A stretch of 21,201 nucleotides of DNA. Origin: a virus. The translations under genes and the position numbers were made by a program. Shown one piece after another: positions 4,944-10,343 of this stretch (its first letter is position 1; each line of letters opens with the position of its first letter). The stretch is from positions 1 through 21,201 of the IMG/VR virus record IMGVR_UViG_3300017922_000016; one strand, given 5' to 3'. The notes under the pieces were generated by a model. That model did not search any database. It was given only the letters and a program-made list of their open reading frames with translations, and was not told the origin of the DNA.

Positions 4944-5222
4944 ATGAACAAGAGCGAATTGGTAACGGCCGTAGCCACAAAATGCGAGAACCTGACCATG
5001 AGCGACGTGGAACAGGCGGTAAACGCCATGATTGAAACCACGACGGAGACCCTTGCCGCCGGCAAGGCGGTGAAGCTGAAAGGGTTCGGGGGCTTCGAAA
5101 TCAAGAAACGCGCTGCCTATCAGGGCCGCAACCCCCGTACGGGTGAGCCCGTGGCGATCCCGGCCAGCAAGGTGGTCAAGTTCAAGCCCGCCAAGGCGCT
5201 GAGGGAGTCCGTGAAGGGCTAA
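4944..5222 (+). CDS. HU-family DNA-bending protein
   Basis: A 92-aa histone-like protein with the whole HU/IHF fold: N-terminal helices (MNKSELVTAVA...), the signature GFGGFEIKKRAAYQGRNPRTGE (about residues 47-68) and the FKPAKALRESV C-terminal helix. HU bends DNA. Mu transposition needs host HU to assemble the left-end complex, so a phage-borne copy could free the phage from host supply; this is inference. The start at 4944 is chosen for AAGGAG seven bases upstream (AAGGAGATAGTC). It is the last gene of the early operon before two hairpins and a drop in GC. Confidence 0.95.
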   Translation: MNKSELVTAVATKCENLTMSDVEQAVNAMIETTTETLAAGKAVKLKGFGGFEIKKRAAYQGRNPRTGEPVAIPASKVVKFKPAKALRESVKG

Positions 5223-5228
5223 AGCGAA

Positions 5229-5266
5229 ACCGCCCTGCGGGGCGGTCGTCGGAGCGTGGCGGCTCC
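5229..5266 (+). terminator. Tandem hairpins after the HU gene
   Basis: Seven bases after the HU stop comes ACCGCCC-TGCG-GGGCGGT (5229-5246), then a weaker GGAGC/GCTCC hairpin (5251-5266). Neither is followed by a T tract, so this is not a classic intrinsic terminator. It could pause polymerase, protect the 3' end or work with Rho. Confidence 0.4.
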
Positions 5267-5322
5267 GGCCTGATGAGCAGCCGACGTGCTTTTGAAAAAT
5301 GATCAGCAGGGGACAGAGCAAT

Positions 5323-8039: not shown

Positions 8040-8477
8040 ATGACAGCCAAGCTTCTGAAAGAATTCGCCGACCTCTACGCCAAGGGGTTTCGTCCGTATA
8101 CTGGCGAGATCACCAGTGAGGTTTATGAACGGCTTGGGTGTACGAAGCCTGAGAAGTCGTACTGGATAGTATACTGGCCGATCCTGCACTGCTTCGGCTG
8201 CTCCAGACGCTGCACACCCAAGACTCCTGAAGGCTTTCAGGTCGTTTTACCGACCGAGGGTGTCACACGAGTAAAATTCGATATCACTCCGGCCCAGATG
8301 CTCCGGTCAAAATCCTTACTCCGGGCCGACGAAGCGGCCTACTGCCTCGCTGTCAGCCCGAGGCAGGTATATGCCTTGGCCGCTGAAGGAAAGCTTGATC
8401 GCCATATAGACAAGCCTTTTCGAGTTACTGTAGAAAGCGTTATTCAAGAGCTGAATCGCACAGAAATGGGAGTATGA
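8040..8477 (+). CDS. Excisionase-like HTH_17 DNA-binding protein
   Basis: A 145-aa protein. The C-terminal 50 residues (SLLRADEAAYCLAVSPRQVYALAAEGKLDR..., about 92-140) have the MerR/excisionase-type HTH_17 pattern seen in small phage regulators. The N-terminal part is unusual, with helical residues 1-33 and a Cys cluster around 51-58 (CFGCSRRC). SD CCGGAGG lies seven bases ahead of ATG. Its end overlaps the start region of the membrane protein gene. A candidate for a late-gene activator in place of Mu C, or a regulator of excision or lysogeny. Confidence 0.7.
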   Translation: MTAKLLKEFADLYAKGFRPYTGEITSEVYERLGCTKPEKSYWIVYWPILHCFGCSRRCTPKTPEGFQVVLPTEGVTRVKFDITPAQMLRSKSLLRADEAAYCLAVSPRQVYALAAEGKLDRHIDKPFRVTVESVIQELNRTEMGV

Positions 8478-9082: not shown

Positions 9083-9116
9083 AAAAAAAGCGCCTCACAC
9101 CGAGGCGCTTTTTTTT
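9083..9116. terminator. Intrinsic terminator
   Basis: GCGCCTC (9090-9096), a five-base loop and GAGGCGC (9102-9108), followed by eight T. The A7 run just before the stem can extend it and lets it work on both strands. It separates the middle region from the lysis and structural genes, so late transcription should start after it. Confidence 0.93.
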
Positions 9117-9138
9117 GCACCATTCGCGTGGATTCCTG

Positions 9139-9167
9139 CGATACTGCAACAATGCCGATACTATGCT
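9139..9167 (+). promoter_or_regulatory. Candidate late promoter with CGATACT repeats
   Basis: CGATACT occurs at 9139-9145 and again at 9156-9162, 17 bp apart, between the terminator and the lysis leader. TATGCT (9162-9167) could be a -10 element. No good -35 is seen, as expected for an activator-dependent late promoter such as those driven by Mu C. The activator is not identified. Confidence 0.35.
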
Positions 9168-9248
9168 CCCTGTATCCACCGAGTTAGCCGCTCGGACACC
9201 TCGCACAACGGCGGGGTCGGGCCGCATCCGGCCCCGCCATACAGGGAG
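9166..9248 (+). promoter_or_regulatory. Structured leader hiding the lysis-gene SD
   Basis: CTCCCTGTAT (9166-9175) is a perfect complement of ATACAGGGAG (9239-9248), which contains the SD of the next gene. Between them lie a small hairpin CCGAG/CTCGG (9179-9183, 9191-9195) and a strong one (9210-9220 with 9228-9238, 11 pairs including one G-T, 7-base loop). Together they would fold as a three-way junction closing on the SD. If transcription starts downstream of 9166 the closing stem cannot form and the repeat would be a DNA site instead. Confidence 0.45.
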
Positions 9249-9253
9249 TGACC

Positions 9254-9754
9254 ATGAAACAGCATACCCGCATCGTCATCGTGCGGACCGACACGGGGCC
9301 TGAAGGCACGTTCGGACGAATGATCCTGCCCGGAGGCCGCGACCTCGTCTGCGCCGAATTGCCCTGGCGCAACAACCGCACGAGCAAATCCTGCATTCCG
9401 CCCGGCACGTACGCGTGCTCCATTGAAACATCCCCCACCTACGGCGTGTGTCCCCATGTCCACGACGTGCCCGGCCGCACCGCGATCCTGATCCATCCCG
9501 GCAACTGGGCCGGTGACGTTGATGCCGGACTGCATAGCGATTCCGAAGGCTGCATCCTGCCCGGTAAGGGGTTCGGCCACTATCCGCCCAAGGGTTTTGC
9601 GTCCCAGCGGATGGTCAGCAACTCGCAGCGCGCCTGGGAACTCATCATGGACGAACTGAGGGCCTCCGGCATCGAGGCCGGCGATCACTTCGAGCTGCAG
9701 ATCCTCGACGCTACAGGCGAAGCCGGCAGGGGGTGGAACGATGGGATTCGGTGA
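9254..9754 (+). CDS. DUF5675 protein, probable lysis-cassette hydrolase
   Basis: A 166-aa protein of the DUF5675 family, often found beside phage lysis genes. Seen motifs are the N-terminal beta-rich VIVRTDTGPEGTFGRM, CAELPWRNN, SCIPPGTY and the core ILIHPGNWAGDVD...HSDSEGCILPG. H81, H94 and C100 form an arrangement that recalls the His/Cys of L,D-transpeptidase-like folds; the enzymatic activity is inference. The ATG at 9254 is six bases after GGGAG; a GTG at 9248 overlaps that SD and is rejected. It is the first gene after the late leader and overlaps the holin gene by 14 bases. No other endolysin is visible in the window. Confidence 0.8.
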   Translation: MKQHTRIVIVRTDTGPEGTFGRMILPGGRDLVCAELPWRNNRTSKSCIPPGTYACSIETSPTYGVCPHVHDVPGRTAILIHPGNWAGDVDAGLHSDSEGCILPGKGFGHYPPKGFASQRMVSNSQRAWELIMDELRASGIEAGDHFELQILDATGEAGRGWNDGIR

Positions 9755-10343
9755 TTTCCTCACTGGCGCGCTCAAGTTCGTGCCGGGCGTAGGACAGATC
9801 GTCACCGCCGTGGAAGGCGTGGCCTCCATAGCCGGGGCCATCGGCGGTGATACGGGCAAAAAGATCCAAGACGGCGTTTCTCAGGTCACGGAAGGACTCC
9901 GTGAGGCCGATGCAAAACCGCTCGACGGCGAGCAGCGCGCCGCACTCGAAAAGGCCGGGATGGATATGAAGATCAAGCTGAGGGAGTTGGATCTGAAAGA
10001 CGTCGAGGGCGGCCGCAAGCTCGCCAAAGCCGAGATCAATTCCGAGGACGAATACGTCCGACGCACCCGGCCGCAACTTCTGCGCTGGTACGGCAAGGGT
10101 TCGTTCCTGCTCATCTTCTCCTGCGTTGGCGTGGCCTTCGCCTCTGCCTTTACATCCGCCGTAAGCAAGGACGAGGCCGCGTTCATTATCGACGTGCTCA
10201 AGTGGGCGCTGCCCACGGTCTCGGGCACATTCCTGCTCATGTACCGCGCTTACACAGGCCGCCGGACCCAGGAAAAGCTGGGCCAGCTCGGCATACAGCC
10301 GGAATCGGCCATGGACAAGGCCGCCAAGCTTCTCCGGAGATAA
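9741..10343 (+). CDS. Three-TM-type holin (gene-transfer-release family)
   Basis: A 200-aa membrane protein resembling the 'holin of 3TMs' family. An N-terminal hydrophobic, glycine-rich segment (residues 13-36, VPGVGQIVTAVEGVASIAGAIGG) is followed by a charged helical stretch. The typical EYVRRTRPQLLRWYGKG motif (about 104-120) comes next, then two transmembrane helices (about 120-141 and 148-171) and a basic tail. Holins form the inner-membrane lesion that starts lysis. The start at 9741 lies within the end of the DUF5675 gene, with a purine-rich SD (AGGGGGTGG). DUF2730 follows after three bases. Confidence 0.85.
   Translation: MGFGDFLTGALKFVPGVGQIVTAVEGVASIAGAIGGDTGKKIQDGVSQVTEGLREADAKPLDGEQRAALEKAGMDMKIKLRELDLKDVEGGRKLAKAEINSEDEYVRRTRPQLLRWYGKGSFLLIFSCVGVAFASAFTSAVSKDEAAFIIDVLKWALPTVSGTFLLMYRAYTGRRTQEKLGQLGIQPESAMDKAAKLLRR

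Follow-up and report, generated by a model that had tools for sequence, protein, structure and literature searches.

A probable promoter-position translational lock ahead of the lysis operon of uncultured Mu-like phages

The window, the whole stretch of DNA analyzed here, covers positions 1 to 21,201 of the virus record IMGVR_UViG_3300017922_000016 (21,201 nucleotides) and holds a Mu-like phage. Genes for a Mu-type transposase and an AAA protein, DUF3164, HU and GemA are followed by a terminator and then by the late genes, in the order DUF5675, a holin-like gene, DUF2730, portal and Mu-like protease. The leader of interest lies, as the initial annotation had it, right after the terminator (9090-9116), which was missed by a simple consensus scan, and ahead of DUF5675 on the plus strand. 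The holin that had been named as the next gene is likely but not certain, since the match to GTA_holin_3TM falls just under the cut-off of Pfam. The 14-nt overlap of the two genes makes translational coupling probable. In the early operon, a type II hammerhead ribozyme (5222-5286, plus strand; Rfam RF02276, 74 bits) is found directly 3' of the HU gene, and it is present in 9/9 relative contigs scanned; type II hammerheads are known from prophages, where a role in transcript processing has been proposed (PMC3088659).

Judged from its position in the operon, DUF5675 is likely an endolysin. In Mu-like relatives from Shewanella and Geobacter the same slot is occupied by other genes. By sequence reading, these are lysozyme-, endolysin- or transglycosylase-like in L067, L068, L071 and L074, which makes a peptidoglycan-cutting role of DUF5675 likely; L072 and L073 have a DUF5675-like gene in the slot. 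Invariant residues H81 (His) and C100 (Cys) suggest an enzyme. Foldseek searches with the predicted structure (pLDDT 78.6) gave no confident or usable match. Among annotated phages, matches to DUF5675 are mostly in Vibrio phages, and the leader region has no similar DNA there.

Table 1. Features of the lysis leader and neighboring genes in the window
Feature	Position	Strand	Remarks
phrog_33310 protein	8040..8477	+	C-terminal excisionase/BldC-like wHTH; candidate late activator
Intrinsic terminator	9090..9116	+	7-bp stem, 8 T; ends upstream operon
-35-like/activator region TTCCTG	9133..9138	+	20 nt before -10; from 11-lineage alignment; putative function
-10 element TACTAT	9159..9164	+	TAnnnT in 13/13 leaders; putative promoter
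5' arm CTCCCTGTAT	9166..9175	+	complementary to SD arm
Predicted transcription start G	9172	+	7-8 nt after -10; from -10 position and spacing inferred for Mu Plys
Inner hairpin 1	9179..9195	+	6 bp; neither sequence nor presence conserved
Inner hairpin 2	9210..9238	+	12 bp; neither sequence nor presence conserved
3' arm ATACAGGGAG	9239..9248	+	contains SD CAGGGAG (9242-9248)
DUF5675 gene	9254..9754	+	first gene of late/lysis operon; Pfam E 4e-24
Holin-like gene	9741..10343	+	GTA_holin_3TM, below Pfam cut-off; 14-nt overlap with DUF5675

A repeat search bears out the perfect 10-bp inverted repeat of the initial annotation: the arms 9166-9175 and 9239-9248 are 10 nt long, 100% complementary and 63 nt apart. 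The same search detects an inner inverted repeat (9210-9220 / 9228-9238), and both enclosed hairpins that had been announced are also present in the predicted fold. The minimum free energy structure of 9160-9270 reaches -50.5 kcal/mol, with an outer helix of 11 bp (9165-9175 with 9239-9249, one G-U), against a mean of -34.2 for 200 dinucleotide shuffles, none of which folds as well (z -4.75); this and all other structures are thermodynamic predictions on single RNAs, with energies that vary with the flanks chosen. The three-stem fold is unchanged in a 249-nt context. The Shine-Dalgarno sequence (SD) CAGGGAG serves the ATG at 9254, with five bases in between, and is predicted to be buried in the 3' arm, which supports the proposal that the leader sequesters it. 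The arm pattern CTCCCTGTA-N45..75-TRCAGGGAG has a single site in the window and occurs in 0/100 shuffles.

Protein and pattern searches yielded 13 leaders including that of the window, all from uncultured Mu-like phages. We count them as 11 lineages, since G001 nearly duplicates the window and G003 nearly duplicates G002. Every one of the 13 precedes a DUF5675 gene, and all share a layout in which a TAnnnT -10 element is followed by a CTCCCTG arm, 9 to 69 nt of insert, CAGGGAG and a start codon. A terminator stands ahead of the promoter in 11/13, its T-run 50-53 nt before the -10 element. In G009 (L090/L118) and G011 (L098/L119) its place is taken by a gene on the opposite strand, so that read-through may be scarce there; the SD hairpin is kept in both. 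The inserts (69, 69, 69, 69, 41, 17, 37, 64, 9, 61, 9, 38 and 67 nt) are unrelated among distant lineages, have no core that can be aligned in all, and range from a bare 9-nt loop in G008 and G010, where the entire device reads GCTCCCTG-(9 nt)-CAGGGAG(C), to two large hairpins; the device of G005 reads CTCCCCGT-(short hairpin)-ACGAGGAG. The sole element common to all leaders is the outer helix that holds the SD. For this reason, neither a conserved three-stem architecture nor a ligand-type reading of the RNA switch in the initial annotation is upheld. A ligand riboswitch or ribozyme is rejected in view of the lack of a conserved insert and of the Rfam search at the leader, which returned no family at gathering score and, with E allowed up to 10, no credible match.

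Six further loci with the arm pattern (L008, L009, L012, L014, L015 and L017) are chance palindromes that lack the operon. No such leader accompanies distant relatives of phrog_33310 in the phylum to which a Geobacter genome belongs. It is also absent from the Mu-like relatives in Shewanella, where a terminator hairpin instead stands immediately ahead of the lysis gene. In the Shewanella prophages L067 and L071-L074, this terminator-like hairpin and its T-run lie about 10 nt or less from the start codon of the first lysis gene, a different gate in the same genomic place.

Several observations bear on whether the pairing of the arms is selected. Eleven pair positions in 11 lineages make 121 helix cells, of which 100 are paired. 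Exchanging the 3' letters between lineages within columns gives 93.1 paired cells, with 4/5000 shuffles reaching 100, and slid registers give 41-61. Two-sided changes are seen at pair 0 (GC, UA, GU), at pair 6 (UA to CG in G005, which is altered in both arms, CTCCCCG/CGAGGAG) and at pair 9 (AU to UA in the three lineages G004, G009 and G011). Compensating changes in homologues, which the initial annotation had asked for, thus exist to a modest extent at pairs 6 and 9. Two-sided changes are no more numerous than in column shuffles (1590/5000 reach the observed number), because the arm core hardly varies; covariation is thin, and we regard it as supportive, not decisive. Two other findings argue for a coupled constraint on arm and SD. 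The SD is CAGGGAG in 12/13 leaders, while other genes of the same phages have drifting SDs, mostly around GGAGG. When the arm is replaced by random sequence, only 0-5 of 200 replacements per lineage hide the SD as well as the observed arm.

The 5' arm adjoins a putative promoter. The arm follows the -10 element of this promoter (TACTAT, TATTCT, TATTTT, TAGCAT, TATCTT, TAATCT or TATCAT) at a distance of 0-2 nt in each of the 13 leaders, and T-12, A-11 and T-7 are invariant. These are the three most important positions in sigma-70 -10 elements. Further upstream, TTCCTG is part of a conserved block in which a C and a T, near -44 and -37, never vary (counting the first base of the -10 element as -12), and conserved bases continue beyond it, as would be expected of an activator-dependent late promoter. 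That a simple sigma-70 scan of the window found no promoter was to be expected from the 20-nt spacer. In G005, sequence reading indicates that the upstream spacer is too G+C-rich for any -10 element further upstream. As to the activator, no Mor/C homologue was matched among the window proteins scanned, in which only an HTH_17/excisionase-like protein was found. This phrog_33310 protein has a C-terminal winged helix like that of Xis/BldC (Foldseek probability 1.00 but E 0.08; weak HTH_17), and is a possible substitute for Mor/C as activator of the late promoter. Its N-terminal part is Cys-rich.

Since the -10 element ends 0-2 nt before the arm, transcription should start inside the 5' arm, at about 9171-9172; the CTG/CCG that the arm conserves at this point gives a pyrimidine-purine step at G9172. 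The first 5-6 nt of the arm lie between the -10 element and this predicted start, so that CTCCC would be the -10-to-+1 stretch and would be absent from late RNA. The initial annotation had assumed that the whole 5' arm is part of the late transcript, and the position of the -10 element speaks against this. A start downstream of 9175, named there as fatal to the proposed switch, is not what the promoter predicts, although the predicted start comes close. With a start inside the arm, the device would be a gate on read-through transcripts, and not a switch on the late transcript.

Predicted SD accessibility differs accordingly between the two kinds of RNA. The median cost of opening the seven SD bases is 11.0 kcal/mol in read-through RNA, 4.1 in RNA from the G and 4.6 with random arms; for the window itself the values are 11.0 in read-through RNA versus 4.1 in RNA from 9172. 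Folding of the latter RNA is not strikingly better than that of shuffles (z -1.41). The lock is weaker in G004 and G011 (8.0 and 6.7 kcal/mol), and inner pairs 7-10 would persist in the late RNA of some lineages.

Together, these data suggest a model, which we consider probable, in which the leader is a promoter-position translational lock of the T4 gene e type on the first gene of the lysis operon. RNA polymerase would enter from upstream, either from the middle operon past the terminator or, in a lysogen, from host promoters. The read-through RNA would carry the full CUCCCUG arm, which would pair with CAGGGAG and hide the SD, leaving DUF5675 silent and, by way of the 14-nt overlap, probably the holin-like gene as well. 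The late promoter would start RNA at about G9172, within the arm, and because this message would lack CUCCC, the outer helix could not close and the message would be translated. In this model we infer where late RNA starts, that read-through RNA exists, that repression takes place and that the lock serves to prevent premature lysis. The timing of lysis, proposed in the initial annotation, is supported as the likely purpose, and the structure is conserved where the lysis operon begins. For a temperate phage, host promoters that read into the prophage would presumably be a further hazard against which the lock guards.

It is conceivable, but in our judgment unlikely, that the late transcript starts upstream of 9166 and includes the whole arm, as in the switch of the initial annotation; the hairpin would then lower or delay translation on every message until a protein, an RNA or the kinetics of translation relieves it. 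The fold is indeed very stable, and inserts long enough to be tested are more structured than mononucleotide shuffles in every lineage (z -2.2 to -4.9), a strength of folding that the promoter-position lock does not need. An extended -10-like sequence, TGCGATACT (9137-9145), could moreover, in the window alone, start RNA near 9152. However, such an upstream sequence is missing in most relatives, and the only -10 element conserved across lineages touches the arm. The insert has no conserved ligand core and may be a bare 9-nt loop, and the plain 8-bp hairpins of G008 and G010, if unrelieved, would silence the operon.

It is less plausible still that CTCCCTG is a promoter element, comprising discriminator and start region, whose match to the SD is fortuitous or has drifted to fit, with no regulatory pairing. 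CTCCC, which the late RNA would lack altogether, is near-invariant in the manner of a DNA element. Yet the SD arm is just as invariant, unlike other SDs of these phages, both arms are changed in G005, and pairs 0 and 9 are altered on both sides. In addition, a promoter-like pattern with TCCC hits in essence a single meaningful site in each phage, which is the lysis leader, and the few other hits look like chance. Two other readings we hold to be very improbable. A DNA operator for a dimeric regulator would explain a perfect dyad beside the late promoter, but it is rejected on account of an arm spacing of 9 to 69 nt, intolerable for a rigid dimer site, and its 3' half coincides with the SD every time. 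Equally remote is a mainly 5'-terminal mRNA stabilizer with SD burial as a by-product; the inserts of long leaders are strongly folded and would form the 5' end of the late RNA, but G008 and G010 have the SD-pairing arm and no insert hairpin.

The promoter-position lock invites a more general reading, for and against which we see the chances as even: one short DNA word would be both promoter part and lock, with the -10-to-+1 stretch selected as anti-SD of the gene it drives and no constraint on the evolution of the insert. The result would be a minimal promoter, proof against read-through, that keeps the lysis operon of the prophage silent wherever it is integrated. In its minimal form, the 24-nt module after the -10 element of G010 and G008, it would be a compact natural promoter whose gene cannot be expressed from other promoters. 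For annotation, the rule would be to look for an anti-SD just after the -10 element of late promoters.

A related principle operates in the IS10/Tn10 transposase gene, where read-in transcripts fold and hide the start region and the proper promoter starts inside the repeat; there it serves a transposon, here a lysis operon. The Plys late promoter of Mu is activated by C and, like the putative promoter described here, lies ahead of a lysis gene and has a non-consensus -10 element and a poor -35 (PMC4461284). In the printed 92-mer of Plys (PMC4461284), we read TAGACT as the -10 element, with the start about 7 nt further on and CAGGGAA also downstream. The -10 element is followed by GCCATC, which, in contrast to the arm of the leaders studied here, is not complementary to CAGGGAA, so the lock is not a general feature of Mu.

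The closest parallel in mechanism is gene e of T4, in which longer early transcripts hide the SD and yield about 100-fold less lysozyme, whereas late promoters just ahead of the gene give RNAs that are missing the 5' strand and translate well; soc, 49 and I-TevI are further precedents (PMC3014915). In T4 an SD helix in RNA initiated upstream guards against premature lysis; here such a helix is present in predicted folds and would serve the same end. The mechanism is proven for T4 and only predicted here. The phages differ, ours being Mu-like, with no T4 late promoter TATAAATA and no gene e, and having a TAnnnT -10 element, a 20-nt spacer and DUF5675 as first gene. The device differs as well, since here the arm would fill the interval from -10 to +1 and encloses anything between a 9-nt loop and two hairpins. 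The putative T4-type trick in these unrelated phages is apparently independent, and it may have been described earlier beyond the open-access literature. If the model is correct, T4's silencing of lysozyme on early messages arose again in Mu-like phages, which would suggest that phages generally need to shield their lysis genes against read-through.
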